A DNA stretch of 22,745 nucleotides from a virus, in the IMG/VR virus record IMGVR_UViG_3300020470_000612, positions 1 through 22,745 of that record; one strand, 5' to 3'. How positions within the stretch are numbered: position 1 is the stretch's first letter; every line of letters starts with the position of its first letter. The notes under the pieces are model-generated. The model saw nothing but the letters and a program-made list of their open reading frames with translations, had not been told where the DNA came from and made no database searches. The position numbers and the translations under genes were made by a program. Positions 1 through 21,187 of the stretch are shown piece after piece.

Positions 1-468
1 GATTTTGATTTAGAAAAGTGGTGGTATAAAATGTGTTTCTTTTCAACAGAATTATTTCCAGAGCCAGGTATATTTCTAGATTTAGATTTAGAATTTCTAA
101 GGCATATTAATGGTAAACTTGAAAAAGATAATCCATATATGAGATTGTTTAAATGTGACTGGGAAAATTTAGAAGAACTAAATGTAAATACAATAGGCAA
201 TCGTTATAAGTATTGTTCTATCAATTCGTCTGTAATGGCTTGGGATAAATCTACTGATAGAGATTTTATATGGAATGACTTTATAAACAATAAAGATAAG
301 ATTGTCAAGTTATTTCATGGTATTGATCCATATCTAGAACATAGGCATCTAGATAAACTAAGCTTTTATGAATCGGGCATTATGTCTTCTAATAGATGTA
401 GGCCTAATGCAGAAGTATATATAATGTCATATGATGGAGAAGATAAAGATGTCCTCACCTACTTATAG
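1..468 (+). CDS. Glycosyltransferase-like protein, 5' end outside window
   Basis: The reading frame is open from base 1, so this is the C-terminal 155 residues of a longer protein; the ATG at 31 is internal because the upstream codons (DFDLEKWWYK) belong to the conserved region. A DxD-type motif, IFLDLDLEF, lies at visible residues 24-32, preceded by an aromatic WWYKMCFF stretch, and INSSVMAWD lies at 74-82. The same order (W.K..FF, then LDxD, then N-S/G-S/G plus aromatic) recurs in the two transferase-like genes at 1081 and 1845, so I read it as a third, divergent paralog. DxD motifs bind the metal-nucleotide-sugar in GT-A folds; that part is family knowledge, and sugar donor and acceptor are unknown. 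It lacks the SWW and NGGFY forms seen in the other two, so it may be specialised or degenerate. Its stop codon lies inside the following methyltransferase-like gene. Confidence 0.6.
   Translation, partial: DFDLEKWWYKMCFFSTELFPEPGIFLDLDLEFLRHINGKLEKDNPYMRLFKCDWENLEELNVNTIGNRYKYCSINSSVMAWDKSTDRDFIWNDFINNKDKIVKLFHGIDPYLEHRHLDKLSFYESGIMSSNRCRPNAEVYIMSYDGEDKDVLTYL
436..440 (+). promoter_or_regulatory. Ribosome binding site choosing the methyltransferase start
   Basis: GGAGA lies 8 nt before the ATG at 449. The two earlier in-frame ATGs at 431 and 434 sit on or just before this motif and have no comparable purine run upstream, so 449 is the better start. Confidence 0.5.
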
Positions 469-1084
469 TATGAAAAGGAATATTATTCCATATTGGACTT
501 ATTCTAAGTTACTACTCTCAACAAATAGATTATATCCACATAGAATGACTGATGTTGCAAAATCTTTTGCACTTAATCAGATACAATCTAAATCTTGGTT
601 AGCTGAACATTTATCAATGTTTTCTTATGATAAGAATAATGATATTTGGATATTAGGCTCTTGGTATGGTAATGTGATAGTGCCACTACTCAACCACTAT
701 TTAAAAGATTGTAATATACATCTTGTCGATTATGATAAAGAAGCTATAGAATTAAGTAATGTATATTGCCATAAACATTTAGGGCTACGTAATATAACAT
801 ATAATCATAAAGATGTCAACTTTGATTTGCAAGATTTAGAAGCTGATATTATAATTAATACCTCTTGTGAGCATATGCTACCAATGAAAGATTTTAATCA
901 TAAAGGCTTATGTGCATATCAATCTAATAATTATAGAAAAGATTCAAGTCATATAAATTGTGTTGATAGTATTGAAGAGTTTATTGAACAATGTGATTTT
1001 AAAAAAGTATTATATTCTGGTGAAAAACAATTTCACGAATATGATGATGAGTATAAAAGATTTATGATTATCGGTGAAAGATGA
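449..1084 (+). CDS. Class I SAM-dependent methyltransferase-like protein
   Basis: Predicted 211-residue protein (217 if started at 431). A glycine-containing motif I (WILGSWYGN) follows a beta strand at about residues 67-75, then an acidic strand end LVDYDKEAIELS at about 92-103, as expected for the loop contacting the SAM ribose, and a motif-IV-like INTSCEHM at about 136-143. These fit a Rossmann methyltransferase; the methyl acceptor is not identifiable. The gene overlaps the truncated transferase-like gene upstream, and its TGA overlaps the ATG of the next transferase-like gene (ATGA), so it is probably translated as part of the same cassette. Methylation of a sugar or glycosylated product would fit the neighbours, but that is inference. 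Low similarity to classical DNA methylases is apparent: no DPPY- or NPPF-type motif is visible. Confidence 0.6.
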   Translation: MSSPTYSMKRNIIPYWTYSKLLLSTNRLYPHRMTDVAKSFALNQIQSKSWLAEHLSMFSYDKNNDIWILGSWYGNVIVPLLNHYLKDCNIHLVDYDKEAIELSNVYCHKHLGLRNITYNHKDVNFDLQDLEADIIINTSCEHMLPMKDFNHKGLCAYQSNNYRKDSSHINCVDSIEEFIEQCDFKKVLYSGEKQFHEYDDEYKRFMIIGER

Positions 1085-1854
1085 TACATATCATATGTAG
1101 CTTATGGGGAAAGAAATATAGTATAGAGTATGTCAATAGATTATACTCTATGGTTAATCGTCATCTACCAACAGAATTTCGTTTTTATTGTCAGACAGAT
1201 ATCACGAATGGATTACATCATAAAGTAGAAGTGCTTCCATTTCTTAACGAACTTCCAGAATCCACACCAGAAGATATGTTAAACTCAGAAGAGTTTGCGA
1301 ATAATCTCCCTCGTCTTTGGGATCGTCCCAAATTAAATTACTTTAAGCCTGATCCATGGGGTATTAAAGGAACTAAGATAGCACTTGATGTTGACTTAAT
1401 CATTCATAATGATATGTCAGATATATTAGATATGTTCTCAGATAAGCCGATTACGGCCCGTTCTTGGTGGCACAATAGAGATAGAGAAAAAGAACCAGCT
1501 TGGAAGAAAAGATTTGGGGCTCATACAAATGGTGGTTTCTATATGTGGGAAGGTAATATGTTTGAGAATGTATGGAAAGATTTGAAAGAGAATGCTAAAA
1601 AAATATACTTTATTTACACGGGTGGTTCTGATAATTTTTTAAGTCAAAGACACTATAATTTGTTTGACTTTCTACAACCGGGTATGTTATATTCTTTTAA
1701 TTATGGTTGCAATTGGCCAGATGATTTAAAAGCTTATAAGATAAGAGAAGATGGTATCATTTGTATATTCAATACAACTGGTAATGTAAAAACAAATTTA
1801 GAAATACATAATGCAATTAAAATGTTTGATGAAGTGAAAGAACTATGGGTATAA
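1081..1854 (+). CDS. Glycosyltransferase-like protein (GT-A type)
   Basis: Protein of 257 residues. It opens with a short beta strand (MIHIICSLWG), has KLNYFKPDPWG at 84-94, a DxD-type KIALDVDLIIHND at 99-111, ARSWW at 126-130, a TNGGFYMWEG segment at 149-158 and GGSDNF at 181-186. This order of a strand ending in DxD, an acceptor-side Gly-Gly aromatic loop and a later acidic motif is what GT-A nucleotide-sugar transferases show; donor and acceptor are unknown. It starts on the ATGA overlap with the methyltransferase-like gene, with GGTGAAAG just upstream as ribosome binding site, and its stop overlaps the start of the next gene by 10 nt. The strong resemblance to the gene at 1845 (SWW, NGGFY, DxD) indicates an old tandem duplication. 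Possible roles are modification of host surface glycans or of virion proteins; neither can be chosen here. Confidence 0.6.
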   Translation: MIHIICSLWGKKYSIEYVNRLYSMVNRHLPTEFRFYCQTDITNGLHHKVEVLPFLNELPESTPEDMLNSEEFANNLPRLWDRPKLNYFKPDPWGIKGTKIALDVDLIIHNDMSDILDMFSDKPITARSWWHNRDREKEPAWKKRFGAHTNGGFYMWEGNMFENVWKDLKENAKKIYFIYTGGSDNFLSQRHYNLFDFLQPGMLYSFNYGCNWPDDLKAYKIREDGIICIFNTTGNVKTNLEIHNAIKMFDEVKELWV

Positions 1855-2468
1855 AAGTTTACGCTGTACGTGTTGGAGATAAGTTTGGACCAGAAGTTGA
1901 AGACTATCTCAAATCTAAATTAGATATTACATTTATTAATGAACCAAAAGAAGATTTCAAACTTCAATGGAATAAGATACACTTTTTTAATTTAAATGTC
2001 AAGGGTCCAATTTGTGTAATAGATATTGACATTGAACTATTAAATGACTATCATAAAATATTTGAATATCCTATTAAGAGAGGTGAATTTCTTTCTATGC
2101 GTTCTTGGTGGGAAACAGATCCCAGAGCCTGTGAACTTAATGGTGGTTTTTATAAATTCTATCCAGAAGATACAAAAGTTTTATATAATCTATTTAAAAA
2201 CGATAAAAGATTTTGGGAAAGATACTTTATAGATGTTGAGAAAGTTAAAATAGGTCCCGTTGCAGGAGAAGAAAACTTCGTTGATTTTGCTGTACGTAAA
2301 TTTGGATTAGATTTAAAATTTATTCCAGACGAATGGACTAGTAGATGGGTAAAGAATCCCAATAAAGAATGGTTAACGAAAATTAATAAAAAATATCCTG
2401 GAAAATATCTTAAACTAGATAAGTTTAACGATAATGTTAAACTACTCCATTATACTATGAACGATTGA
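1845..2468 (+). CDS. Glycosyltransferase-like protein (GT-A type), second full copy
   Basis: Protein of 207 residues, shorter than its upstream paralog mainly in the N-terminal part. Visible motifs: QWNKIHFF at 41-48, CVIDIDIELLND (DxD type) at 57-68, MRSWWETD at 85-92, LNGGFYKF at 98-105, GEENFVDFA at 141-149, and a near-terminal LLHYTMND, whose histidine sits where many GT-A enzymes have a metal-binding His. Start at 1845 overlaps the previous gene by 10 nt; the ribosome binding site is weak (GAAGTGAAAG), suggesting coupling to upstream translation. Its 3' end overlaps the opposite-strand 179-residue gene by 27 bp. Base composition of the whole 1-2468 block appears AT-richer than the fibre genes beside it, consistent with a separately acquired cassette, although long marine phage genomes vary in this way. 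Confidence 0.6.
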   Translation: MGIKVYAVRVGDKFGPEVEDYLKSKLDITFINEPKEDFKLQWNKIHFFNLNVKGPICVIDIDIELLNDYHKIFEYPIKRGEFLSMRSWWETDPRACELNGGFYKFYPEDTKVLYNLFKNDKRFWERYFIDVEKVKIGPVAGEENFVDFAVRKFGLDLKFIPDEWTSRWVKNPNKEWLTKINKKYPGKYLKLDKFNDNVKLLHYTMND

Positions 2469-2981
2469 TAATAATTCTAAAGGTGTTTCCGCTTCTCTTA
2501 ACATTTCTAAATCTTCTTTATCTGCTTCTAACATTTCTTCTATCACTCGTAATTTTAAATTAAATAAATGTTCTGAGTGTTCTTTATCATCTGCATCAAA
2601 ATGTATTACCCAATCAAATCCCTCAATAGGATCCGCTTCTACTTTTTCAACTGTCACATTTTCTTTTGCTAATCTTCGAATCTCTTCAATATCTTGTTTT
2701 TGGGCTTGAAGAACAAAATTTTGTTCAGATTCGATTTGTGCTTTTGTCATTCTATCAATATCTTCTAGAGACTCAAGTTTTTGAACTTCATGCCACAAAT
2801 CGTTTTCTGGATCTACAGATATATAATGCTCTTTAACATGAGCAACTTGTTTAGTTGGATCTTCAGCTTCTTCTGGATTTAAAATTTCTGTTACTATCAC
2901 AGATTCTTTGTCTTGATTTGCCCATCTAACTTGCATTCTGTTTTCTGGATTAAATGGTAGTATATTTTCTGTTTCTGCCAT
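2442..2981 (-). CDS. Acidic protein of unknown function, last gene of the late block
   Basis: Protein of 179 residues that I do not recognise by family. It is strongly acidic and glutamate-rich, with a predicted helical, coiled-coil-prone middle and C-terminal part (for example LKLRVIEEMLEADKEDLEML) and no membrane segment or signal peptide. The start is supported by AAGAGGT upstream (revcomp of bases just after 2981) and it lies only 9 nt after the stop of the 440-residue virion gene, so it is co-transcribed with the fibre genes. A small acidic helical protein placed straight after fibre genes could be a fibre assembly chaperone or a minor structural component; this is inference from position and composition only. 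Its final codons overlap the converging transferase-like gene by 27 bp. Confidence 0.7.
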   Translation of the reverse strand: MAETENILPFNPENRMQVRWANQDKESVIVTEILNPEEAEDPTKQVAHVKEHYISVDPENDLWHEVQKLESLEDIDRMTKAQIESEQNFVLQAQKQDIEEIRRLAKENVTVEKVEADPIEGFDWVIHFDADDKEHSEHLFNLKLRVIEEMLEADKEDLEMLREAETPLELLSIVHSIME

Positions 2982-2990
2982 AATTACCTC

Positions 2991-4313
2991 TTAATAAGTT
3001 CTTGCATTTAAATAATATGTATTCTGTGTTGTAGGAGTTCCTTTAGGTACATAACCTGCAAGATAATTATCTACATCTCTTTCATATGTTAAATATTCGG
3101 CCGCTCTTGCTTTATTTAATATAGCACTACCTTGTTGAGTACCAGATATAGCAACACTATAATTAAAATCTAATCTATTACCGGCTACGTTTGATGTAAC
3201 ATAACACATCATATTTTCTAAAACTGTTTTCCAAGAAGTTGAATCTATAGTTCTTAGATTACCCTGTGCGGCTCCCGTTGTTATAGTGACTAAAGGTAAT
3301 ACACTAGACGTTGTAGTAAATGGATTTGAATTTCTTCTATACATATAATAACTCTGTCCATCTCTTATTCCACTATCTGTACCTCTTGGACTTTCTGTTT
3401 GCCATTCACTAAATTGTTTATTATAACTACCCGTACCTATAATAGAATATAAATGATCGGCACTTGCTCCACTAGTATCCCAAGGATTTAATACACCAGC
3501 TACTGCCATATATCTATCAACAAAAATAGTGGAGTTCCATCCAGAACCACTATAATGGCCATATGATTTACCATCAATTGAGTGATTAGAACCATAAGCA
3601 CCTGAACTACCAGCAAACTGTGTTCCACCTGTTCCACCTGAAACGTGTCCCTGATAATCACCACCACTAACATTTCCTAAATTAGTCTGTACTTGATTAG
3701 ATCCTTCTATAACATCAAAAATTGGAGCGGTAACATATCCTGATGGTGCATTACTACTATCTGATACTGTATAAAAATTACCATTACCCGCTAAACTGTT
3801 TACAGTTGAACCTGAACCAGTAATAGCTGGATAAATAAATGTATCGTACATATCACTACGTTCCATAGCTTTAAGATTACCACTATCATAATATAATGGA
3901 TATGTCCAATTATTTGAAGTGTTTGAAAGAGTTGCGTGGGGTTGTGATGTTACGTCATCTGTTATTTTATATAAAAAATCATTAGTTGCCCAAGTTTGAA
4001 TAGAAGAATTATCACCGGGATTAGAAAAACCAGTTGTTGAATGATTAGTTGTTCCAGCTAATCTATAAGAATCTGTTAAAGCATTTCTTACATTGTATCT
4101 AGAATGAAGTGTGCTTAATGCACTCTGTCCAACTCTACCTGCTTTATTGAAATCTCCTCTTTTATCAACTACTAATTGTACACCACCATTAAATCTCAAC
4201 CATTTTTCGAAATAAAGATACTGACAATATGCCTGTACCGCGGCTATTTCTGCTGTAGACATTTGTTGGGGATTGTTGTTAGTACCGACTTTTAAAGGTG
4301 TTCTAACTGCCAT
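2991..4313 (-). CDS. Putative virion structural protein, fibre-associated
   Basis: Protein of 440 residues. It begins MAVRTPLKVGTNNNPQQMST followed by a helix-like AEIAAVQAYCQYLYFEKW; a start of the type 'RTPL...G.LQEMT..EI' is one I associate with a structural protein of marine T4-like phages downstream of the fibre gene, but the link is from memory and moderate. The middle (about 90-330) is rich in Ser, Gly, Thr, Asn and aromatic residues, as in beta-rich fibre or decoration proteins; the C-terminus (TPTTQNTYYLNARTY) is a polar beta-type tail. Ribosome binding site AAGGA stands about 10 nt before the ATG, and the gene lies 15 nt after the stop of the 1452-residue fibre gene. It could be a fibre tip, a fibre-connecting protein or a head/tail decoration protein. 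Confidence 0.6.
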   Translation of the reverse strand: MAVRTPLKVGTNNNPQQMSTAEIAAVQAYCQYLYFEKWLRFNGGVQLVVDKRGDFNKAGRVGQSALSTLHSRYNVRNALTDSYRLAGTTNHSTTGFSNPGDNSSIQTWATNDFLYKITDDVTSQPHATLSNTSNNWTYPLYYDSGNLKAMERSDMYDTFIYPAITGSGSTVNSLAGNGNFYTVSDSSNAPSGYVTAPIFDVIEGSNQVQTNLGNVSGGDYQGHVSGGTGGTQFAGSSGAYGSNHSIDGKSYGHYSGSGWNSTIFVDRYMAVAGVLNPWDTSGASADHLYSIIGTGSYNKQFSEWQTESPRGTDSGIRDGQSYYMYRRNSNPFTTTSSVLPLVTITTGAAQGNLRTIDSTSWKTVLENMMCYVTSNVAGNRLDFNYSVAISGTQQGSAILNKARAAEYLTYERDVDNYLAGYVPKGTPTTQNTYYLNARTY

Positions 4314-4328
4314 AATATATATTCCTTT

Positions 4329-7300
4329 TTAAGCACCTGGTCCATATAAAGTTTTCAATGCATTTCCAGAAGCATCTAATATTTGTAAAGATACTGCTGA
4401 TTTTAATTTAGCTTGAGATACTGCACCAGCACCTATTTTAGCTTCTGTTACTGCTGTAGCGGCAAGTTTTGCTGTCGTAACATTCAAGTCAACTATTCTA
4501 GTAGTCTCAACTGAATCTGCTTTTAAATGTGCCGCACTAACACTATTATTATTTATATCAGCTTCAGATATCTTTGTTCCACCACCATTTTTATAAACTG
4601 TATTAATTGTTCTAGTAGCTTGAGTACCATCATAACCAATACTTCCTGTTATAACTCCATCTATTGCGAATGTAGTACTTGTTGCGAGTTGTGTGGCACT
4701 ATTCGCATTACCTTTAAATTCATATCCCTTAGCACCTGAAACTGGATAGATTAAGTCTGCACCAGTATCTGCTCTTACTACTTTTGTCGTATTAACTTCT
4801 GTAGTAGCTTTTAACTTAGGTGTAAGTAGAACTCCAGTAGAAGGAGTAAATGTTAAATTTGAAGACTCTTTAATATCTTGTACACCAGTTGTTGTCGAAC
4901 TTGAAACAAATGTTAGATATTGTGCTGAAGTTGAACTCTGCTCTGAAACTGTTTTTACTTTTACATCTATAGGTGCCGAACCATCAAATAATGTTCCACC
5001 AATTGTTCTACCAGTTGCAAGTTTTGTAGCTGTCGCGGCATTACCTGTTAAAGCACCAGTTACATTACCTGTAATCGTACCAGATGCATTAATTGTAGTA
5101 AATGATCCAGCGGCGGCTGAAGATGCCCCAATAGTTGTACCATCAATCGCACCACCATTTATATCTACTGTAGCAAGAGTTGATGAACCACTAGATGTGA
5201 TATTACCAGTTACGTTACCAGTTACACCGCCACTTGCAGTTATGGCACCAGATGCGGCTATTGTAGTAAATGCTCCAGTTGTTGGTGTGCCAGCACCAAT
5301 AGTACCATTTATATTACCTGTCACGTTTCCTGTAACATTACCAGTAATATTACCTTCTATGTTTGCAACGAGAGTAGATGGTGAACCAGAAATTTTGCTT
5401 GAATTATCAGTAGCATCTGCAATCATTACAAATTTAGAAGTACTATCGTCATAGCCCATAAAGGCTTTCTTTGCCGCAGAACCATTGTGATACTTCATTA
5501 TGATACCACGATCTAGATTATCATCTGAACCATCAGCACCCATTTCAAAGATTGGATCTGCGATTGATACTGTTGTTGAATTAACTGTAGTTGTTGTACC
5601 TGCTACTATTAGATTACCAGATACTACAATGTTTTCACCAACATTTAATTGTCCTGCGACTGTTACATCTGTGGGCATGCCGACTGTGACTGTTCCGTTT
5701 GAACGAGAAACATCAATTTCATTGGCAGTACCAGCTACTGCGAGTACGGCACCAGTTGTAGCATCTTTAAGTGTTACAGCACCTGAACTTACAGCAAAAT
5801 CTCCACTGTCAAAAGATGCAACACCTTTTACAGTAGCAGAAGCCGGGGCAATAGTAGAGTCGTATGTTTTACCATCTGCTGTAGAAACTCTAAAATTATT
5901 ATTAGAAGAAGTATATGTTGTACCAGAAACACCAGCAACTGCGATTGTACCAGCGGCTGTAACACGTCCCTTAGCATCTACTGTTATTTGTGGAATAGCT
6001 GTCGCACTACCATATTGTTGTGCTGATAGTCCTGACATTGTATCTAACTGTGCAGAAGTTATAGAGCCAGAGGCTATAGTTGCATCAAAGTTTGCACCAG
6101 ATTGTGTTGTAATCCTAAATCTTTTGTTTGTGGCATCATAAGCAAAGTTAGAAACACCCGCAACTGCTGTTGTAGATGCTTTTGTGATTTGTCCTTTTTT
6201 ATTGAATGTTATAATAGGAACTGCTGTTGCACTACCAATTGTTTGACTTGCACTATGATTACTATTAGCATCTGCTAACATTGTAGACGTAATTGCTCCA
6301 GAGGAAATCGAACCAGCGGCATTTAGAACTCCGTTTGTATCAAACAGAACTGTTCCACCATCTCTTGTTAAGGCGCCATCAAAGTCAACATCACCATTTA
6401 GAGTTGATGCACCTGATACTGCGAGAACACCTACTGTTGCAGTACCTGTAACCCCTGCATCTCCACTAACAGTTAGATCATCATCAACTACTAAATCATC
6501 TGCTATGTCTAAGTCATTTACCCATAACTTTTCCCATGGCGCACTTGAACTTCCCAATGATCTTGTGCCAGTTGGGATAATATCTGTGTCTACAACACCA
6601 ATCATAGATATTGTATCTGATGATCCATTACCTAGATCAGTACTACCATTACTATTAAATGTTCCAGTTGCTGTCAGATTTGTATATGTTCCTGCTGGAG
6701 CAGAAATTGTACCACCACTAGGTACTATTGATGAGCCAGTTACTGTTAAATTACCATAAACAGTTAAAGAATTTCCTGCTCCTTGTCCAGATACACCTAA
6801 TGTAATATTGTTAGCAACTATGTCTGTTGCATAAACACTAGCCCATCTAGAACCATTAGCTCCCAGATTTACTGTACCTGTTGGTAAAATAGAAGAGTCT
6901 ACTGATGCTGTAATTGTAAGAGTATCAGAAGAACCATCTCCGATATCCATATTACCAGATGTTGTTAAGTTTGTAAAGTTTGCAGTACCACCAAAAGTTC
7001 CTGTTGCTGTGATAACATCACTACTATTATCACCTAGTCCGACATTACCTTTCATTGTGGTATTACCATCAACATTTAATGTAGATTTTAAATCGACAGC
7101 ACCGTTGGCAGTAACTGTTGTTGCTGTTACTCCATTTAATGTTGTATTTCCATCTACATTAAGAGTTGCATTTAAATCTACGGCACTATTTGCTGTAACT
7201 GTAGTAGCTGTCAAACCATTTACTGCTGTCGTTCCCGAAGCTGTGATGGCCGTAGCATTTAATGTTCCAGCAGTGGTTACACCCGTTATTCCGAGTGTAC

Positions 7301-8687
7301 CAGCCACAGTAGCGTTATTATCTACAGTCAAGTCATCTATTTTTGCTACACCATCAATATATAAATTAGTCCATTCTCTAGTAGCTGAACCTAAACTTCC
7401 TGCTCCATTTGTTTTTGGTATGAGTGAAGTAGAAACACCTTGTCCACTTCCTGTTGCAACTGAGAGTTCATCTATATTTGCGACACCATCTATGTACAAA
7501 TCTTTCCATTCTTTTGAAGAAGAACCTAAATCTCTTGCATTATCTGTAGAAGGTATCAAATCTGAGTCAAATTGTCCAGTTGCTGTAATCGTATCTGATG
7601 TTGCATTACCTAAATCTACATTACCTTCAGCACTAAAATTCTGTACAGTTAAATCACCTGTTATCCCTAATGTACCTGCGATTGTGGCATTATCATCAAC
7701 TGTCAACGTATCGACTTTAGCAATACCATCTATGTAAAGATTTCTCCATTCATAAGTTGAAGAACCAATATCTCTTGCATTATCTGAAGTTGGTAAAATA
7801 TGACTTGAAAATCCTAATCCAGCTGAAGTTCCCAAAGCTATAGTATCAATATTTGCAACACCATCAATATGTAAATCATTCCATTTTGCACTAGAACTTC
7901 CTATGTCTAATGAGCCTGATGGAAGAAGAGAACCATTTGTTGTTAGTCCTTGAACAGTAAGTCTTCCGACATGGGCACCCGAACCATCTGCACTAAATGT
8001 ATGCATAACAGTATTAGAGTTATTCATAATCTTGAAGTTACTATCACCATCAGTACTTACAAGTTGCATTAATAAATCTGAGTCACCAGCAGTAGAACTA
8101 CCATCTCCATATATTCTAAACTTATCTGCTCCAGCTGTTCCTGCGGAAAATCTAAGATCAGGTGTATTTAATTCTTCAGAGAAAGATGTATTTGATGAAG
8201 ATAAGATTAAGTGTGCGGCATTAGAAGACAAGTCTTGCATATTTCTCAAGCTGAGAGAAACAGCAGTAATTTGATCAGAGCCAGTTTTTCTTAATAATTG
8301 TCCTGAAGAACCACCAGTTGCTCTTATTCTTGATATATCTCCAAGTATAATTCTATCTGATGATGCTGTTGTGAAGTTTACATTACCAGTAAATTCTGTA
8401 TTCGCTGATACTGTTAATGTTCTTGCATTAATAGTTGTGTTTGAAGTAATCGTTATATTACTGATACTTGAAGTATTACCACCTCTAATAATACTTGCTC
8501 TTAAATCGTTAGCACTCCATTTACCCTTAATATGCCCATCACCACGTGCTGTTCCACCTCTTGCCGCAGAACCTGCTCTAGTAACTGTGACTACGTTGTT
8601 ACTTAAAACTGTTGCGGCTAGATTTGTATTAAGTCTCCAAGTATTAAAACTATCTACAAGATTTGTATTTGCTACTGCTACAGTCAT
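4329..8687 (-). CDS. Large mosaic tail-fibre protein
   Basis: Protein of 1452 residues made of repeated low-complexity beta modules. About six copies of a motif of the type LYIDGVAKID, each preceded by a NARDLGSS..EW-like segment, occur between about residues 270 and 730. A 28-residue tandem repeat lies near 490-545, a duplicated module of about 78 residues (both containing GSATAxPxIT..KG) near 790-950, a VKGVASFDSGDFAVSSG segment near 955, and a module with VNSTTVSIADPIFEMG and RGIIMKYHNG near 1050-1085 that recurs in marine phage fibres. Then come short ITGNVTGN repeats (about 1110-1200) and a C-terminal helical-looking AKL/AKI region. This pattern fits a trimeric fibre shaft with a variable distal end; receptor recognition is inferred. 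No peptidase S74 chaperone domain is visible at the C-terminus. The start has AAGG upstream and lies 2 nt after the coiled-coil gene. Confidence 0.75.
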   Translation of the reverse strand: MTVAVANTNLVDSFNTWRLNTNLAATVLSNNVVTVTRAGSAARGGTARGDGHIKGKWSANDLRASIIRGGNTSSISNITITSNTTINARTLTVSANTEFTGNVNFTTASSDRIILGDISRIRATGGSSGQLLRKTGSDQITAVSLSLRNMQDLSSNAAHLILSSSNTSFSEELNTPDLRFSAGTAGADKFRIYGDGSSTAGDSDLLMQLVSTDGDSNFKIMNNSNTVMHTFSADGSGAHVGRLTVQGLTTNGSLLPSGSLDIGSSSAKWNDLHIDGVANIDTIALGTSAGLGFSSHILPTSDNARDIGSSTYEWRNLYIDGIAKVDTLTVDDNATIAGTLGITGDLTVQNFSAEGNVDLGNATSDTITATGQFDSDLIPSTDNARDLGSSSKEWKDLYIDGVANIDELSVATGSGQGVSTSLIPKTNGAGSLGSATREWTNLYIDGVAKIDDLTVDNNATVAGTLGITGVTTAGTLNATAITASGTTAVNGLTATTVTANSAVDLNATLNVDGNTTLNGVTATTVTANGAVDLKSTLNVDGNTTMKGNVGLGDNSSDVITATGTFGGTANFTNLTTSGNMDIGDGSSDTLTITASVDSSILPTGTVNLGANGSRWASVYATDIVANNITLGVSGQGAGNSLTVYGNLTVTGSSIVPSGGTISAPAGTYTNLTATGTFNSNGSTDLGNGSSDTISMIGVVDTDIIPTGTRSLGSSSAPWEKLWVNDLDIADDLVVDDDLTVSGDAGVTGTATVGVLAVSGASTLNGDVDFDGALTRDGGTVLFDTNGVLNAAGSISSGAITSTMLADANSNHSASQTIGSATAVPIITFNKKGQITKASTTAVAGVSNFAYDATNKRFRITTQSGANFDATIASGSITSAQLDTMSGLSAQQYGSATAIPQITVDAKGRVTAAGTIAVAGVSGTTYTSSNNNFRVSTADGKTYDSTIAPASATVKGVASFDSGDFAVSSGAVTLKDATTGAVLAVAGTANEIDVSRSNGTVTVGMPTDVTVAGQLNVGENIVVSGNLIVAGTTTTVNSTTVSIADPIFEMGADGSDDNLDRGIIMKYHNGSAAKKAFMGYDDSTSKFVMIADATDNSSKISGSPSTLVANIEGNITGNVTGNVTGNINGTIGAGTPTTGAFTTIAASGAITASGGVTGNVTGNITSSGSSTLATVDINGGAIDGTTIGASSAAAGSFTTINASGTITGNVTGALTGNAATATKLATGRTIGGTLFDGSAPIDVKVKTVSEQSSTSAQYLTFVSSSTTTGVQDIKESSNLTFTPSTGVLLTPKLKATTEVNTTKVVRADTGADLIYPVSGAKGYEFKGNANSATQLATSTTFAIDGVITGSIGYDGTQATRTINTVYKNGGGTKISEADINNNSVSAAHLKADSVETTRIVDLNVTTAKLAATAVTEAKIGAGAVSQAKLKSAVSLQILDASGNALKTLYGPGA
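5843..6311 (-). repeat. Two-copy module of about 78 residues inside the fibre gene
   Basis: Two adjacent segments align throughout: both run SG.ITS..L, then GSATA.P.IT...KG..T, then AVAGVS, then FR..T..G...D.TIA. The first copy covers roughly 6070-6311 and the second roughly 5843-6075; limits are approximate. The copies are diverged at the DNA level, so this is an old internal duplication. The GSAT.IP.IT segment is common in phage fibre proteins. Confidence 0.65.
7053..7220 (-). repeat. 84-bp tandem repeat (28 residues, two copies) in the fibre gene
   Basis: Unit 1 is 7137-7220 and unit 2 is 7053-7136, head to tail without a gap. Protein units begin NGLTATTVTAN and NGVTATTVTAN and end LNVDGNTTL and LNVDGNTTM. 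By hand count they differ at 5 of 28 residues and about 22 of 84 bases. Confidence 0.85.
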
Positions 8688-8898: not shown

Positions 8899-11800
8899 TT
8901 ATACCTGTAATGCGATACTTCTCAAATCTTTAACCATCGGAACACTAGATGTTGATGTAGATGTAAATACAATCTTAAAAGCAAAAGTTTTATAAGTCTT
9001 GTAAATACTACCACTAGATGTTCTATATGAAACAATATTACTATCAGCACTATTTAGTCTTGCCTGATTATCATTATTGGTACCTAAAAAGTTTTGTCCA
9101 TCAGTATTTGCTGACAATCCATATTCAAATTCTTTAAAGTCAGAAGTGTTTACACTATCAGATATAGTAGTTGAAGGTGTAACTTGTGTCAATAAAGTAT
9201 AATCTTTATCATTTAAACTTTCACCATCATCTGCTGATTTTAATTGAGCATAAACTTTAATATCAGTACCAGATGGTTTATAAGCTGTTAAGTATACTGT
9301 CATATCTTCAGCATCTTGTCCGTCAGCTAATTCAATTGGTTTTGAGAAATATCTTGTAACTGCTCCACCCACTTCTTTTGTATCTTCATTACTTGAACTA
9401 TTATTAATTACGTTTTCTAATGAATATACATTTGCTCTGGATAAGTCAGCAACTGGTGACATTTTGGAATCACTTGTGTTAAATAATCCTTTAACAACTA
9501 ATGTCTTCTTCGAACCATTAACAGCCGATAAGGCACTCTCATTCATCTTACTGAATATTTTCTTTTCATTATCTGTAAAATGATTTTCAATTTCTTGTTC
9601 TAAATTACTCCAATTACCACTTATAACACCACCACTAGTAGTTGTTCTTACACTCCAAGTTGTAGAAGTGTTTGCATAGTTTATAACAGGAACTTTTGGA
9701 ACAAGAACATTATTAATTATATTTTCAGCACTAGTAACTCTTGCTGTAGCACCACTTACTTGTCCTCTAATCCAACCATTAGCTGTAGTTGCCCAAGTAG
9801 AAGTATTAATAGTCATCTTACCATTTAAAGTATCATTAAATTCTAGAAAACCATTATTTGTATTTGCAGTAAATGCCGTAGTATTACCCACCCAAGTACC
9901 ATTTAACTTTACGTTATTTGTATTTGATGAAGCAGTAGTTGGAAAATCTCCGTATGCATCTACTTTAAGTGTACATCTTCCAGCTACGTTATTTCTAACT
10001 ATTTGTCTTACAGTACCATTTGCAAAATTTGTACCAGATGATGCATGAGTTGTTAATACTCCACCCACTGGTATCGTAGCATTGTTAGAAATTGTAATAA
10101 CTGATTCTGCTCTAATCTTTTCCCCTGGATTAAAAGTACCTGTAGGATTATCATAGTTAAAGAAATCGTGATCTGGATTTTCTAGATAAAGTGTACCTTG
10201 TGCTGTATTAAACTCTGCTCTCCAAAGTTTGAATTTTAAATCTTCAGATTGAATAGGACTCCAAGTTCTATCATTAGCTGAAGTCATTAATATACCAGTT
10301 GCTGGTTGCTTATCAATTAACTCATTAGTGTTAATATCTTTAGCACCCATCTTAGCACACCATACAGCATACTCTTCTGTATTACCAGCTGGAATTAATA
10401 CTACACAATAATCTTTATAATTCTTTAAGAATATTGGTGAGTCAAAAGTAAATGTTGTAGCTGTGGCCGCAGAAGTTGTACTTACGTTAATCGCCGCAGG
10501 AAACAATGTTTTTGTACCATATGGTAAAACTGTTTTTGTTGGAAGCCCATTTTCTACTTCACGTATTTGAACTGTGATAGGTAATGAAGCGGCTTTCTTA
10601 TAAAAGAATAAATCTATTTTAGTGATAAACACACCAGCAGATTGTTCTTCATTAACAGAGAAAGTTTGTGCAAGTGGATCGTAGTTATTCCATTGACTAT
10701 CTACTACAACATTTGTAGTATCAATTCTTGTTTCAGTAACATTTTCTGTAACAACTTGAGGGATAACTAATTGTGCTGATGCCCCTCTTTGTGTTATATT
10801 TAATGGAATACTTGTATAGTCAGAAAATGAAGAAGTTGTTACTAAGTCTGTTGCTATCTGTGTGTTCGCAACATCTTGTAATTTAAATCTTCTTGTACCA
10901 ACTCTAAACTTCATCTCTTCTGTATCAGGGATACGGAACTTACCATATATAGAACCAGCCGCATCTGTAGTTAAATTACTACCTTCAGCGGCAGTATTCG
11001 CTCCAGCAGAATTAGTTGGAGTAGTAAAATCATTAACTAGTTCATCATCAAAGTATGGATAAACTCTTGTGCTTGGTTTCATACCATGTGCAGTAAAAGA
11101 TATTAATCTGGATCTCATATATTCACGTACACTAACTTCTTGTACGTAATTACCAATATCAAAAGTCTGAGTTGAAGCAGAAATAGTAGTTTGTATACCT
11201 GATCTGATTTGATCTTGCTGTTGCTGTTGCATTGTCAAGTTCCACCAGCCACCTTGTCCTTGCTGTGTATCACCCCAAGTACCACCAACTAATCGAGGTG
11301 GATCTTGAGTATTAATCCAAGTTCCCCAATCTGTACCAGTAAAACCAGTATGTTCTGCTAATTGTTGAAATGATTCATAGATACCAGAAAAGTCCATTTG
11401 AATATCTGGTAGAGATGTTATATCTGGAGTATTGTCCATTGATGGGCTAAGTGTCATAACACCTTGCCAATTAAATGTTAATTCTTGAACAGGATTTCTA
11501 GCTTTACTTGCCTTATTCTGATTGATGAATGAAGCGTGTGTATAACCTAGAGTAACTAAATCACCAGTTTTAGTGATATTAGATGATGTAAAAGTTTTAT
11601 CTTTTTCTAAAGTTAAGTCTCTTCTCTTATAGAAAGGACGTAGCACGTTATTATTTCTATCGATAGCGGCTCTATATCCAACTTTTGTTGAATCAGATAG
11701 ATTATGTCCGTCAAAGTTTTCTACAAAGAAACCATTTTTAAATCTATCAAAACCAGAAGAGTTAAATAACTGCTTATTCTTTACAGAGGCTTCAAGAGCA

Positions 11801-14800
11801 TTTAATGAAGAATAGTATTCAGTATTTCTAATTCTATCATCAAGTCCTCTTAAATCTTTCATAGTATAACGTCTGTTATTATCAAGAGTTAGTTTAACAC
11901 CATACTTGTGCTTGTCATTATCTCTTGCTACTTTAGTAGACAATGATGGGAAAACAGGAATGTCTAACGCACCGATTGTCATAGAGTTTGCTTTTTCTTC
12001 TGGTAATCTTGGAGTAACTCCAGGGGTTCCCTTAATAACTTCAACTTTACCTTCTTCTGTGATAATAATTCTATCTTTTCTTGGTAGATAGTGCTGAACA
12101 TCAGCTTGAAAGTTTTCACCTGGTGCCATCATAAAAGCGCCATCTCCGTCCATAGCAAAAGCTGTAGAAGCCGCTGGATTTGTAGGTGTACCAGCAAGTG
12201 TTGCCGTTGTTGTTGGATTACAAGTGTTCGCTTTAAAAGGCCTGAAATCTACTGCATCTCTTAATTCTATAACTTTACCTGTTGATGGTGAAGTAAAGCT
12301 TGGTATTTCCCAAGTTTTAATTGAAGTAGATGAAGTAGTGCTATCATTTACAGGATAAGAGTCTACTGATAAGAAACCAATTCCTTGCGAATAATTTCTT
12401 TCGAAAAAAGAAAACTTGACAAGTAGTGCTTTATTTGTTATATTAAGGGTACTTGTAGGTTTCTTAACAAGTTTAGAAGTGTCATACATATCATCTTTTT
12501 GTCCAGAGTCAATAGTAAAATGAGATGTAACATTTGTATCATTAACTGTAACTGCTGTTTGATCGGTACCCATATAAACAGCTTCTAGTTTATATGCATC
12601 TGAAACACCTAAACTCCAAGGACCTGCATTTGTGGCACTATGATTATTTGTAGTAATTGTAATATACTGACTCTTACGAACAGTTTTTGCAGATTGTACA
12701 GCACTTGAACGTAGAACATTAAAGTAAACAGATGCCGCAAAACTACTTGACACATTTGCTTGTTGTAAGTTAATGTTATGTTGTGAAGACGTAGATGTTA
12801 TAGCTCCATTGGCATCCATGTCAAATATGTAACCTTTTGGAAATACATTATTGTGTGATACGCCTGCGGCCGCATTTAGTCCTGATCTTGTTACTGGTTC
12901 AGTATTTGCTAGTGTGAGTGATGTATCACTATTAACTGTTGCAATTCTGTGAATATAGTTATTAGAACCATCTTTAATTCTTATTACATCACCAGCTTGA
13001 TATGTTTGTAGAAACTGAGTTCCGCCACCAACAACTGCTTTAGCATTAACAGAAACAATATGTCCTTTTCTTGGGGCAGAATGGGCTGTTGCTTTTGAAA
13101 CTACAATAATTTGTCTTTCTTGATCAGCAGTTAAAGAACCAGTTTCATTCATAGTCTCAGTACCACCAGCATGGGCAGAGTTTGCTGAAACTGTAGCGGC
13201 TAAAGATGTACCAGAACCGGGTGAAAATGTAACTGATTTTTCTGTTCTGTAAACAAATTGTGTATCTACGTTATTAGATGAATCTTTAAGTGTCTTTGTT
13301 CCCAAGAAACTAAATGGTAACACTAAATTATTTTTACTTGATTCTTCTAATCTTGCAGAAGTTGTACCATAAGCTGAAGAAGTAACAATATCAGCCATTG
13401 AATTGTGTGTTGAGTTAACTTCAAATAGTGAACGTACACTACTAAAAGATTTACCAGTATTCATTTTAATATCAAAGATATATATTTTGAATTGTCCATC
13501 TGGAGTACCAGAAGTTCCAGAATGATAATTAAAACCTCTTACTTTACACGTTCCGATTTCATTACCAGTAACAGCTTGATCACCAAAATTTACTTGTGAT
13601 ATTCCGAGTTGTGGTGCATCTCTAAGTGATACTTCTCTAAGTCCTTGAAAGTCCCAACCACCAACAACTTCTTTACAGATAACATAGTTACCAAAACTTT
13701 GTGATAAAACTCTAGCATCTTTAGTTGTGTAGTCTGTAGCTTTGTCAAACTCAATTGGTGTTGGATTAATTAAATGAACTTTCTGTCCATTTACGTATCC
13801 CATACCTTTATCTACTTCAGCTATTAGTTTATTTGCATTACCACCTTGTGCAGTATTATATCTACCTAAGTTTGTGCTTTCTTTTAAATGTTCACGTATA
13901 CGAACTGTAAAAGGTTCTACTGCATAGTTACCGTGGGCTTCGTGCATCTTCATTGATATATGTTTACCAATATCTGAATATACAGTATCTTTTACATTTC
14001 TTATTATTTCACCATCTTTCAATTCTACAACTGTGAAAAATGTATCTGTATTCGCTGTAGCTGAAGCACGACTTGCCAATGTTGGAAGAAGTTTTAATCT
14101 GGTAGCACCAGGGGCCGCAAAGTTTGTTGATCCACTTGCGTTGTCTAAAAGAGAACTATCTGCGTTTGAATCTACTGTGCTTTCAACTGTTTGAAATCCA
14201 ACTTTTTTACTTGGGTTTGTTGTGTACTTATCAACGATATGACTTTGTGAAGTAACTCTAACAAAATGTCCTTTGTGATATATTACTCCATCACCAACTG
14301 TTGCTCTTGTCCCTAACCCGGAAGAACTGCTCGATATCGTATTACCAGCAACGATAAAAGCGTTACCAGTACGATTTCTTAAGGTTAGAACTTCATTGTC
14401 TGCAAAAGTTTTAGTTGTGTTATTTGTACCAGAATTTGTATACTTAACAAAAAGAGTTAGATAATTTGGAGCATTTGATTCTGAACCTTCAGCAACATCA
14501 ATCAACTGTGCTGTCATACCAGAAGTTGTACCTGTAACAATTGAGTTTGCAACTACGCCACCAGAATAAAAGTCTGTTAATAATAGCACTCGGTTATTAG
14601 CATCTTTATCTCTTAGTTTTACGTAATCTATTCTTTCTATTTTTAAAGCCGCACCAGTAACGATTGTTCCGTCTATCAATATTTCATTACCAAATCTCTC
14701 TATTTGATTTTGAAGAATTGTCTGAAGCTGAGTCAGTTCCCTTGCCTGTACAGCATAACCAGGACGAAATAAAACTCTATTGAAGTTTTTTGTTTCGTCA

Positions 14801-14847
14801 AAGTCATCAAAATATGGGCTTTGATTTAAATTTGTTTCTAGTGCCAT
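8899..14847 (-). CDS. Giant virion structural protein, DUF4815-type N-terminus
   Basis: Protein of 1982 residues, the largest in the window. The N-terminus (SPYFDDFDETKNF, then RVLFRPGYAVQARELTQLQ at about 24-42, then LQNQIERFGNEI) is the hallmark of the DUF4815 family of marine T4-like virion proteins. A glutamine/tryptophan-rich patch (GQGGWWNLTMQQQQQDQ) lies near residue 1200. Straight after it, at about 1240-1260, is MRSRLISFTAHGMKPSTRVY, and near 1390 DPLAQTFSVNEEQSAGVFIT, both widespread motifs in myovirus peripheral baseplate or fibre-attachment proteins. The rest is beta-rich, Ser/Thr/Asn-rich sequence. It occupies the T4 gp9-gp10 position but shows no visible similarity to them. TAAAGG stands just upstream of the ATG, 11 nt after gp8. 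Likely role: connects the wedge baseplate to the fibres. Confidence 0.75.
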   Translation of the reverse strand: MALETNLNQSPYFDDFDETKNFNRVLFRPGYAVQARELTQLQTILQNQIERFGNEILIDGTIVTGAALKIERIDYVKLRDKDANNRVLLLTDFYSGGVVANSIVTGTTSGMTAQLIDVAEGSESNAPNYLTLFVKYTNSGTNNTTKTFADNEVLTLRNRTGNAFIVAGNTISSSSSGLGTRATVGDGVIYHKGHFVRVTSQSHIVDKYTTNPSKKVGFQTVESTVDSNADSSLLDNASGSTNFAAPGATRLKLLPTLASRASATANTDTFFTVVELKDGEIIRNVKDTVYSDIGKHISMKMHEAHGNYAVEPFTVRIREHLKESTNLGRYNTAQGGNANKLIAEVDKGMGYVNGQKVHLINPTPIEFDKATDYTTKDARVLSQSFGNYVICKEVVGGWDFQGLREVSLRDAPQLGISQVNFGDQAVTGNEIGTCKVRGFNYHSGTSGTPDGQFKIYIFDIKMNTGKSFSSVRSLFEVNSTHNSMADIVTSSAYGTTSARLEESSKNNLVLPFSFLGTKTLKDSSNNVDTQFVYRTEKSVTFSPGSGTSLAATVSANSAHAGGTETMNETGSLTADQERQIIVVSKATAHSAPRKGHIVSVNAKAVVGGGTQFLQTYQAGDVIRIKDGSNNYIHRIATVNSDTSLTLANTEPVTRSGLNAAAGVSHNNVFPKGYIFDMDANGAITSTSSQHNINLQQANVSSSFAASVYFNVLRSSAVQSAKTVRKSQYITITTNNHSATNAGPWSLGVSDAYKLEAVYMGTDQTAVTVNDTNVTSHFTIDSGQKDDMYDTSKLVKKPTSTLNITNKALLVKFSFFERNYSQGIGFLSVDSYPVNDSTTSSTSIKTWEIPSFTSPSTGKVIELRDAVDFRPFKANTCNPTTTATLAGTPTNPAASTAFAMDGDGAFMMAPGENFQADVQHYLPRKDRIIITEEGKVEVIKGTPGVTPRLPEEKANSMTIGALDIPVFPSLSTKVARDNDKHKYGVKLTLDNNRRYTMKDLRGLDDRIRNTEYYSSLNALEASVKNKQLFNSSGFDRFKNGFFVENFDGHNLSDSTKVGYRAAIDRNNNVLRPFYKRRDLTLEKDKTFTSSNITKTGDLVTLGYTHASFINQNKASKARNPVQELTFNWQGVMTLSPSMDNTPDITSLPDIQMDFSGIYESFQQLAEHTGFTGTDWGTWINTQDPPRLVGGTWGDTQQGQGGWWNLTMQQQQQDQIRSGIQTTISASTQTFDIGNYVQEVSVREYMRSRLISFTAHGMKPSTRVYPYFDDELVNDFTTPTNSAGANTAAEGSNLTTDAAGSIYGKFRIPDTEEMKFRVGTRRFKLQDVANTQIATDLVTTSSFSDYTSIPLNITQRGASAQLVIPQVVTENVTETRIDTTNVVVDSQWNNYDPLAQTFSVNEEQSAGVFITKIDLFFYKKAASLPITVQIREVENGLPTKTVLPYGTKTLFPAAINVSTTSAATATTFTFDSPIFLKNYKDYCVVLIPAGNTEEYAVWCAKMGAKDINTNELIDKQPATGILMTSANDRTWSPIQSEDLKFKLWRAEFNTAQGTLYLENPDHDFFNYDNPTGTFNPGEKIRAESVITISNNATIPVGGVLTTHASSGTNFANGTVRQIVRNNVAGRCTLKVDAYGDFPTTASSNTNNVKLNGTWVGNTTAFTANTNNGFLEFNDTLNGKMTINTSTWATTANGWIRGQVSGATARVTSAENIINNVLVPKVPVINYANTSTTWSVRTTTSGGVISGNWSNLEQEIENHFTDNEKKIFSKMNESALSAVNGSKKTLVVKGLFNTSDSKMSPVADLSRANVYSLENVINNSSSNEDTKEVGGAVTRYFSKPIELADGQDAEDMTVYLTAYKPSGTDIKVYAQLKSADDGESLNDKDYTLLTQVTPSTTISDSVNTSDFKEFEYGLSANTDGQNFLGTNNDNQARLNSADSNIVSYRTSSGSIYKTYKTFAFKIVFTSTSTSSVPMVKDLRSIALQV

Positions 14848-14858
14848 CTACTTTACCT

Positions 14859-16619
14859 TTAAAAATCTAGTATAACTTTTATGTCTTCAGTCTGATCAAC
14901 TGCTCTTGTAACTTTTTGAAAATTCTCAACATGAATAAATTCTCCAGAGTATGTGTTTGCCTCTGGTCCAGCAATAGCTGATACTGTTGCTCTAATTGTG
15001 GAATCTCCTCTTTTTAATAATTGATCATTCTTTGTAAAGGGTACAAAAGTACCATAACTATCTACATTATTTAGATAGATATTAAAGAACGATACATCAG
15101 AGTTTGTTTCATCATCTTTAATAAAAACGATTGTACCATTTGCTCCAGTTGATGCTTGTGCAACTGAGGCACTTCTTCTAGCAGAGGCGTTCAATTCAGT
15201 AATATATCCAATGTTACCTGCTTCTGCTCTAAGTCTTAATCTTTCATTTGTAATTTCATCATTTACTGCAAATTGATTCTGTGGTACATTGTTTATTATT
15301 TGCTGATAAGATATATTCAATCTAGTTGTCAATCTTAATGTATCAGCACTATTAGACGTATTAGCAATTGCCTCTGTCATAATAGCATTATTCGAATTAA
15401 CTTTTAATATTGGATCTTTTAGAATACCAACTGTTCTGAACTCAGTATTAGCTGGAATATATCCAGCACCAGTTGAAGAAGTACCACGACTTCCTTTAAA
15501 CTGAGCATTTAAACATATTTTATTTCCACCCAATTCTCTTATAGCATCTTTACCGTGGCCACCAATTGGAGATATAATTGCATTTGCTGTTGCACCAGTA
15601 CCGTGAGTAGTATTAGATGAAATATAAACTTTTGCTCTTGTATACTTAGAACCCACTGCTATAACATTAACATTAGATATATTTCCATTTGTATTAACTA
15701 ATGAATAAGCTAATGCCCCAACGCCATCTCCAACTATATTGACTGTTGGAGAAATCATGACAACTGAATCTGTGAATGGTGTAGTGGTGAAATTCGTGTT
15801 AGTTGTTAGTGTTCTTGTTGTTCCTGCGTAATTAACTATTCTTCTTAATTGTCCTACTCCAGTACCAGATTGTATATAAACTGAATCGCCATTATAATAA
15901 TTATCAACTGTTGATGGATTACCTGATGCTAACTGAATTGTATTTACAGTTGCACCTATAACAGCAGTACTTGGTACCATTTCATAACTAGCACCAACAT
16001 TCTCTGTTTCTACTACGTGTATCGCACCATTAACAGAAGCATTTTGAACTGCTAATTGATTTACTTGTTCAGAAGAACCATCACTTGCTGATAATGTCTG
16101 AACGGGCATATGTGATGCTGTTAAAAATTTATTTGCTTGTCCTAAACTAATAGTATACATATACTTCCAAGTATAACCATCAGAAGTTGAAAAAGGTTGT
16201 GTCGCAAAACTAGTCGGCTTAACTGTTGACTTTCCACCTTTATTGTTGTATAAACATTTGTATACATTCATTTGATCTGTAAGAACATAGAATGATTGTC
16301 CATATAAGCCTTTATTAGTGTGCTTATACATTGGATAAACTGTATTAATTTCCCAATCAACTCTTGGTATTACGTGACTAACATCAGTAACAGAAATCTT
16401 TTTGGCCGCGACTGCTTCTTTCCACATTTTATAATGTTTATCATAGATAGTTTCTTCAGCATTATCGGCAGTTGGCTCATTAGGCCAATCATTTGATTTA
16501 CCTAAAACAGCATATAAAATTGTAGAGTTTTTTGTTGTTCTACTATCTGTTCTTTTTAAAGATTCTACGAAAGCTTTCGCTCCCATAATATTCATTTCTT
16601 TACTTGCATAAGATGACAT
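14859..16619 (-). CDS. 8: Baseplate wedge protein gp8-like
   Basis: Protein of 586 residues. The N-terminal third matches the gp8 signature: VIPRVDWEINTVYPMYKH at about 85-102, GQSFYVLTDQMNVYKCLYNN at about 108-127, then STVKPTS and SDGYTWKYMYTISLGQANKF leading to HMPVQT. T4 gp8 is a baseplate wedge subunit that dimerises and joins gp7 and gp10 region proteins; that is established for T4. T4 gp8 is 334 residues, so this copy is much enlarged: the middle holds an inserted beta module (YYNGDSVYIQSGTGVGQLRR near 245) and a ISPIGGHGKDAIRELGG segment near 350, the latter seen in gp8 of marine phages. Its ATG overlaps the previous stop (TAATG), with AGGAA upstream. A TATAAATA string 98 nt upstream is coding and weakly supported as a promoter. 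Confidence 0.85.
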   Translation of the reverse strand: MSSYASKEMNIMGAKAFVESLKRTDSRTTKNSTILYAVLGKSNDWPNEPTADNAEETIYDKHYKMWKEAVAAKKISVTDVSHVIPRVDWEINTVYPMYKHTNKGLYGQSFYVLTDQMNVYKCLYNNKGGKSTVKPTSFATQPFSTSDGYTWKYMYTISLGQANKFLTASHMPVQTLSASDGSSEQVNQLAVQNASVNGAIHVVETENVGASYEMVPSTAVIGATVNTIQLASGNPSTVDNYYNGDSVYIQSGTGVGQLRRIVNYAGTTRTLTTNTNFTTTPFTDSVVMISPTVNIVGDGVGALAYSLVNTNGNISNVNVIAVGSKYTRAKVYISSNTTHGTGATANAIISPIGGHGKDAIRELGGNKICLNAQFKGSRGTSSTGAGYIPANTEFRTVGILKDPILKVNSNNAIMTEAIANTSNSADTLRLTTRLNISYQQIINNVPQNQFAVNDEITNERLRLRAEAGNIGYITELNASARRSASVAQASTGANGTIVFIKDDETNSDVSFFNIYLNNVDSYGTFVPFTKNDQLLKRGDSTIRATVSAIAGPEANTYSGEFIHVENFQKVTRAVDQTEDIKVILDF

Positions 16620-21186: not shown

Positions 21187-21187
21187 G

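Follow-up and report, generated by a model that had tools for sequence, protein, structure and literature searches.

In pelagimyophages, variable genomic islands that are rich in glycosyltransferase (GT) genes, predominantly of the GT8 type, adjoin the VrlC gene, and the encoded enzymes have been proposed to modify the host O-chain as a measure against coinfection (Zaragoza-Solas et al. 2020, PMC7029224). Here we describe a block of four genes at the left edge of a 22,745-base viral contig, IMG/VR record IMGVR_UViG_3300020470_000612, which was analysed over its entire length and is called the window below; sequence 5′ of position 1 lies beyond the reach of the record. Four overlapping plus-strand open reading frames (ORFs), at positions 1-2468, encode in order a first glycosyltransferase (GT1), an S-adenosylmethionine (AdoMet)-dependent enzyme (MT), and two further glycosyltransferases (GT2 and GT3). 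We lean slightly towards reading these genes as the 3′ end of a phage glycan-assembly operon that would alter the surface glycan of the host.

1-468, plus strand: GT1, putative GT-A-like glycosyltransferase paralog, 155 aa, truncated at its 5′ end by the record boundary (ORF, profile match)
431-1084, plus strand: MT, predicted class-I AdoMet-dependent (probably methyl) transferase, 217 aa (ORF, profile match)
1081-1854, plus strand: GT2, predicted GT-A glycosyltransferase paralog, 257 aa (ORF, model, fold matches)
1845-2468, plus strand: GT3, predicted GT-A glycosyltransferase paralog, 207 aa (ORF, model, fold matches)

An initial annotation of this DNA had described overlaps at every junction, which we measured as 38 nt (GT1/MT), 4 nt (MT/GT2) and 10 nt (GT2/GT3), and a length gap of about 50 residues between the two complete GT copies, which is exactly 50 (257 versus 207 aa). 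Its observations on the cassette as a whole held in part, and its interpretation, a duplicated sugar-transfer cassette with a methylation step, was partly supported. An alternative MT start, the ATG at position 449 with GGAGAAG about 7-9 nt upstream, appears likelier than the one at 431 and would reduce the GT1/MT overlap to 20 nt. GT1 orthologs in other contigs are 192-227 aa long, compared with 155 aa for the 5′-truncated copy in the window.

The order GT1-MT-GT2-GT3, all on the same strand, was found in 19 of the 20 other contigs that carry MT, GT2 and GT3, the exception being a contig (L089) that ends before GT1; as the initial annotation had proposed to check, the gene order therefore recurs in other marine phage contigs, and it does so beside tail genes. 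The loci were retrieved by similarity to MT or GT3 and include near-duplicates, the 20 contigs collapsing at 95% DNA identity to 16 lineages, 15 of them with all four genes. The MT/GT2 overlap is exactly 4 nt in 18 of the 20. Of the 19 full blocks, 12 are contiguous; in the other seven, GT1 and MT are separated by 1555-1564 bases (about 1.56 kb). According to Pfam, this insert holds an aminotransferase gene and a radical SAM/SPASM gene in L087, the one contig in which its identity was read; L088 shares the gene clusters of L087, and the other five share its length. The same pair of genes, found between GT1 and MT in L087 (5043-6648), is located upstream of GT1 in L096 (2379-3921), as if it might move as a unit. 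Among 80 loci fetched by MT alone, a GT of the same family lies within 3 kb in 53 and within 150 bases in 29, and 25 of these 29 immediately adjoining GTs are on the same strand as MT, with four on the opposite strand.

The three GTs are homologous, with similarity beyond chance. Pairwise BLASTP comparisons among them were weak (E 3e-5, 3e-4 and 0.17), so the case for paralogy rests on profiles and folds. Profile-profile alignment with hhalign, using profiles built from 17-18 distinct orthologs per GT, gave E-values of 3e-25 for GT1-GT2, 1.2e-7 for GT2-GT3 and 7.7e-7 for GT1-GT3; as controls, each GT against the MT profile gave 0.05-0.12, and 20 column shuffles per GT pair produced best values of 0.02-0.03, none below 0.02. 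A single GT profile recovered 291 of 4622 ORFs in the window and 164 other loci, the weakest at E 3.5e-21, including all three window copies and leaving MT unmatched. On profile homology we assign GT1, whose truncated copy is too short to model alone, as a putative GT-A-like transferase; it also has a tblastn match to a ‘glycosyltransferase’ of phage C48C1 (E 3e-6). Single-sequence scans of viral contigs with GT2 and GT3 were unproductive, as were Pfam, PHROG and NCBIfam searches with single cassette proteins of the window.

The motifs follow a common order, with W8, K10, D27-x-D29, N75-S-S and G107-I-D109 in GT1; W80, K84, D103-x-D105, SWW, N150-G-G, G-S-D184 and a C-terminal FNT in GT2; and W42, K44, D60-x-D62, SWW, N99-G-G-F-Y, G141-E142 and, where GT2 has FNT, a C-terminal H202 in GT3. 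The DxD motif reported earlier is present in all three, its accompanying Asn loop reading NSS in GT1, and SWW and NGGFY do occur in both complete copies. The W.K..FF motif said to be shared by the three does not extend literally to GT2, which reads W80-D-R-P-K84-L-N-Y-F (W..PKLNYF), and the matching of relative positions is only rough, the distances in GT1, GT2 and GT3 being 19, 23 and 18 residues from W to DxD and 48, 47 and 39 from DxD to Asn.

A recent origin by duplication, as the words ‘duplicated cassette’ might imply, is contradicted by the tree. The copies fall into three clades, one each for GT1, GT2 and GT3 (98, 100 and 100 in the Shimodaira-Hasegawa-like approximate likelihood ratio test, SH-aLRT), and GT3 groups with the GT3-type genes of other phages, including Mosig_00092 of phage Mosig (99), apart from GT1 and GT2. 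We therefore rejected recent tandem duplication in place, and the separate clades and the placement of GT3 argue that the copies are distinct old paralogs of one viral family that have been transmitted together as a block. For the tree, 123 dereplicated rows were limited to the leading 100, from which we took those of the window, Mosig and the cassettes and every second one of the remainder, stopping at 64, with C48C1 excluded; support values are from quick SH-aLRT, with no bootstrap. As to further GT copies upstream, a check also suggested earlier, the eight records searched had three to four family matches each, normally the cassette's own three; MT was single-copy in all eight.

Structure prediction agreed with the earlier assignment of a GT-A-like sugar transferase and revealed no fold conflict between the complete copies. 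AlphaFold2 models of GT2 and GT3 (predicted local distance difference test, pLDDT, 93.5 and 94.8) both matched GT-A enzymes, and both proteins are predicted to have this fold. The best match of the GT2 model was to LgtC (1g9r, Z 16.9, 217 aligned residues, 3.4 Å), with further matches to LARGE1 (Foldseek E 5.5e-8) and UGGT. The GT3 model scored best against GlyE (5gvv, Z 13.4, 180 aligned residues, 3.4 Å) and reached Z 12.8 with LgtC (1g9r), its matches at Z 11-13 comprising UGGT, GlyE, LARGE1, WbbM, LgtC, glycogenin and the PBCV-1 capsid glycosyltransferase. LgtC makes lipooligosaccharide, and we count the nearest GT2 and GT3 folds, this enzyme included, as tending to favour a role in surface glycans. 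In a library of viral structures, GT2 matched best to an uncultured Caudovirales glycosyltransferase (E 8.9e-20, template modeling score 0.80, 26% identity). Two longer phage proteins, A0A6J7X5Q0 and A0A6J5PVH5, named as methyltransferase-domain-containing or MptE-like, match GT2 structurally along part of their sequence, which suggests possible GT fusions with methyltransferase- or MptE-like partners. Sequence searches of the PDB returned two irrelevant matches for the GT2 profile (E 0.34 and 0.39) and weak GT8 matches for GT3 (best 0.028).

The same folds bear on DNA hypermodification, in which the GTs would glucosylate modified bases as in T4. T4-like phages glucosylate their DNA, which is the attraction of the idea, but both T4 glucosyltransferases, alpha and beta, are GT-B enzymes, and we rejected DNA glycosylation because the GT2 and GT3 models match GT-A enzymes; we regard it as extremely improbable. 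A restriction-modification system, moreover, is given for only one of more than 100 SAR11 genomes (PMC7029224).

Conservation at the predicted active sites was high. The DxD is invariant in 17 of 17 GT1 orthologs (as DLD), 18 of 18 GT2 orthologs and 18 of 18 GT3 orthologs, and the Asn and acidic-motif positions are strongly conserved across the ortholog sets; invariant positions of the GT2 family were computed over 42 sequences. At the C-terminus, all 18 GT3 orthologs have His, all 18 GT2 orthologs have FNT, and none of the 17 GT1 orthologs has His. In LgtC, Asp103, Asp105 and His244, the C-terminal metal ligand, lie near the donor (PMC4202792). Judging from motif order, the C-terminal His or Asn of the phage GTs may be equivalent to His244. 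GT3 has His at this position and GT2 has Asn, while GT1 has neither residue, a difference that would fit three non-redundant reactions. The lack of GT3's C-terminal His in GT1 and GT2 could also mean that one or more copies are degenerate and serve only as binding partners of an active GT. We consider this very unlikely, since the conservation of the DxD, Asn and acidic positions in the ortholog sets argues for selection on GT activity.

The fourth member of the block, MT, has the family signature GSWYG ... INTSCEHM ... HIN, with invariant residues over 42 sequences that include W78, Y79, T144-S-C-E-H148 and H174, and at least 590 relatives were confirmed in viral contigs. Against the PDB, its family profile (A5) matched methyltransferase 3dtn at E 1.2e-5 and spermidine synthases from 1.2e-4, and the protein matches the ‘putative methyltransferase’ Mosig_00090 at 34.6% identity (E 1e-17). 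Its five Pfam matches fall short of the curated thresholds, as does its NCBIfam speE score (18.7 bits versus 249.55). Thus the earlier description of a methyltransferase-like gene between the first two copies stands as far as a predicted class-I AdoMet fold is concerned, while methylation itself is probable at the level of fold.

Outside the phages, relatives of MT with the INTSCEHM motif occur in high-GC alphaproteobacterial contigs (L168 and L171-L175), mostly of Kiloniellaceae; the scanned neighbours of the relative in L175 include a formyltransferase gene. We had entertained flagellin glycosylation as the identity of the genes next to these bacterial relatives and rejected it, the genes being oligopeptide ABC transporters. 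In a gammaproteobacterial metagenome-assembled genome (MAG; L177, NZGL01000008.1), a run of five radical SAM genes, of which three have SPASM domains, comes after the MT relative.

These surroundings, together with the accessory genes upstream of GT1, are the basis for another explanation, in which the operon's product would be a methylated glycoside or glycopeptide for use in infection or competition. The region upstream of GT1 varies among the relatives and can encode radical SAM, GT8, Asp/Arg hydroxylase, QueC-like, kinase-like, ketoacyl synthase and short-chain dehydrogenase/reductase (SDR)/epimerase proteins. Radical SAM/SPASM, aminotransferase, carbamoyltransferase, nitroreductase and hydroxylase genes in Mosig and uncultured contigs, the aminotransferase and radical SAM/SPASM insert of L087, and MT relatives adjoining oligopeptide transporters or the radical SAM series of L177 would all suit such tailoring. 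However, the accessory genes would also suit the synthesis of modified glycan sugars, and no precursor peptide, carrier domain or exporter turned up, though no systematic search was made; we judge small-molecule or peptide tailoring quite unlikely.

The GT operon is convergent with a minus-strand tail operon that contains VrlC. The features of this operon are as follows, with c1, c4, c5, c25 and the like being family labels of our own from greedy BLAST clustering.

2442-2981, minus strand: c5 family gene, convergent neighbour and the gene of the opposing tail operon nearest to GT3, 179 aa (c5 profile E 8.5e-19)
2991-4313, minus strand: c4 family gene, putative tail-associated or adhesin protein, 440 aa (c4 profile E 4.8e-89)
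4329-8687, minus strand: structural protein, 1452 aa (best match phrog_697 structural protein, E 9e-14)
8899-14847, minus strand: VrlC-type two-layer baseplate protein, 1982 aa (phrog_358 E 0; clusters with Mosig_00100 ‘putative VrlC protein’)
14859-21583, tail operon: baseplate genes

Also encoded in this operon are a phrog_473 virion protein, baseplate wedge proteins, a baseplate hub/lysozyme-like protein and a protein of the PAAR type, and the 1452-aa structural protein contains repeated LYIDGVA-type units. With VrlC, the baseplate genes and the GT genes together in a T4-like genome, we assign this edge of the window, with VrlC as the landmark, to the published pelagimyophage ‘host recognition cluster’ (HRC), and its source, on gene content, to a T4-like relative of the pelagimyophages. 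The HRC has its other border at the neck gene gp14; the record breaks off within GT1. The gp6 protein is closest to its counterpart in Pelagibacter phage HTVC008M (38% identity), and a megablast search with the whole window against 50,697 phage records found no close DNA relative. Rfam and tRNA searches of the window gave no matches, and a promoter and terminator scan yielded nothing useful.

The 3′ end of GT3 overlaps the convergent c5 gene by 27 nt, and the c5/c4 pair recurs beside GT3-type genes across marine phages. The c5 product is short and acidic, looks helical and might be a fibre chaperone, with no NCBIfam match and a weak PHROG match to a family of unknown function; c4 had no PHROG or NCBIfam match. 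Among 79 loci fetched by GT3, 39 have a c5 homolog no more than 300 bp from the GT3-type gene and always convergent to it, and all 39 are among the 41 closest loci. This association speaks in favour of virion glycosylation, by which the GTs would build a methylated glycan on phage tail or fibre proteins with c5 and c4 as part of the system, as does the presence in the GT3 fold list of a PBCV-1 enzyme (2p72, Z 12.4) whose title names the major capsid protein as its target. Yet synteny alone could hold neighbours together, the genes facing the cassette vary by clade (c5-c4-c1 versus c25-c26-c34), and the GT strand is opposite to the tail operon and carries few late-type promoter boxes.

For the last point we counted a TATAAATA box, which we take to be late-type from the T4 late-promoter consensus. 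It was enriched upstream of tail-strand genes (16 of 130, versus 3.65 in shuffles) and showed no enrichment upstream of GT-strand genes (6 of 117, versus 4.3). Of 45 divergent operon heads, 14 had the box on the tail strand alone, three had it on the GT strand alone, six had it on both and 22 on neither, the discordant pairs (14 versus 3) not being phylogenetically independent. The bias hints at non-late expression of the GT operon, which we weakly favour and which would fit host modification better than virion decoration. We rate glycosylation of the virion as unlikely.

We also searched for the cassette on the host side, in 147 genomes from the order of a Pelagibacter MAG. The GT2-type model (A4, which had no positive control in this search) matched none of the 147, and the GT3-type model had a single match, a truncated gene on a phage-like contig (L165, PAFP01000047.1, filed as a Candidatus Pelagibacter MAG). 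The MT model matched in two genomes, with one strong hit on the same contig (2.9e-69) and two marginal ones. As positive controls for the models behind these negatives, A6 matched phage-like contigs of two other MAGs and A5 matched eight of eight records. L165 encodes a DegT aminotransferase, a carbamoyltransferase, a nitroreductase, MT and the GT fragment, and its Mosig-like gene order suggests that it is probably a misbinned pelagimyophage fragment. With no GT match in these genomes beyond the truncated gene on L165, and the one strong MT match on that contig as well, we rejected a host origin of the cassette.

In the operon for host surface glycans that we favour, GT1, GT2 and GT3 would each transfer a sugar from a nucleotide-sugar donor, with the metal held by the DxD, one after another, onto a host envelope glycan (lipopolysaccharide, LPS, core or O-chain) during infection. 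The AdoMet enzyme would methylate one of these sugars and might thereby cap the chain, and the altered surface might hinder adsorption of competing phages, a role that is the published proposal for pelagimyophage GTs and no result of this work. Several observations weigh against this scheme. Of the 147 sampled genomes, 146 lack the GT families, so the argument cannot draw on a host glycan locus, and the window holds no sugar-nucleotide pathway. The MT relatives of Kiloniellaceae and Rhodospirillaceae adjoin oligopeptide ABC transporters, not LPS genes; the radical SAM/SPASM, aminotransferase, QueC-like and Asp/Arg-hydroxylase genes in related operons would be unusual for a simple O-chain; and the operon head of Mosig carries the TATAAATA box on both strands. 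A more specific idea, which we consider improbable, is that the block might be the conserved core of an undescribed viral pathway for a methylated, radical-SAM-modified glycoconjugate unlike host O-chains, in which three ancient GT-A paralogs that differ in their C-terminal metal-ligand residues would work in a fixed order with a dedicated AdoMet enzyme, by a chemistry that occurs in viruses but not in the sampled host order.

Although no established concept is overturned, part of the ‘hypervariable’ pelagimyophage island is a fixed enzymatic unit, with order and overlaps kept across at least 15 lineages. The four genes offer a defined, expressible target for asking how these phages treat the surface of abundant marine bacteria, and names could be given to the clade of GT3-type genes and to the family of INTSCEHM enzymes, as partners that recur together.

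Compared with the GT8/GT24-type enzymes LgtC, glycogenin and UGGT, and with LARGE1, the window GTs share the DxD and, in the GT2 and GT3 models, the overall fold, and GT3 has a C-terminal His that may correspond to the one in LgtC. They differ in having 7-17% identity in structural alignments, no Pfam GT8 match (PF01501, at E up to 10 for all three), and no such His in GT1 and GT2. PHROG 1962 takes in related phage proteins (Mosig_00092, E 4.7e-17; Mosig_00183, 4.9e-23; C48C1_0146, 3.9e-21), whereas GT2 matches it weakly (E 0.068) and GT1 and GT3 do not match. Among cultured phages, the GT model A1 and the MT model A5 found three GTs and a single MT in Mosig, a single GT but no MT in C48C1, and neither in HTVC008M, Melnitz, Syn1 and P-SSM2.

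Mosig (EXVC030M, MT647606) offers the closest layout, in Mosig_00090 to 00094, with an MT of the same family, a GT3-type gene downstream (25.9% identity), a further family GT (00094) and a cluster in the same place as in the window, convergent with a tail operon whose end is VrlC. Here, however, MT is preceded by a carbamoyltransferase instead of GT1 and followed by the GT8-like Mosig_00091 (Pfam GT8 23.9 bits, cut-off 24.3) instead of GT2, and a nitroreductase separates the two GTs; the first half of the text of the Mosig announcement (PMC7892664) does not discuss this region. In the literature searched, where coverage of subscription journals was poor, we did not find this four-gene block described, and the passages of PMC7029224 on the region leave it unnamed, with ‘methyltransferase’ occurring 0 times in its main text. 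Gene content of this type, and the role proposed for it, are already published, and this conserved block appears to be undescribed. As in the HRC of that paper, the window has a GT-rich variable island beside VrlC in a T4-like phage, of a kind that in SAR11 phages also holds radical SAM cassettes; but where the paper calls the region hypervariable, we find a fixed block of four genes that is shared with 19 other contigs.

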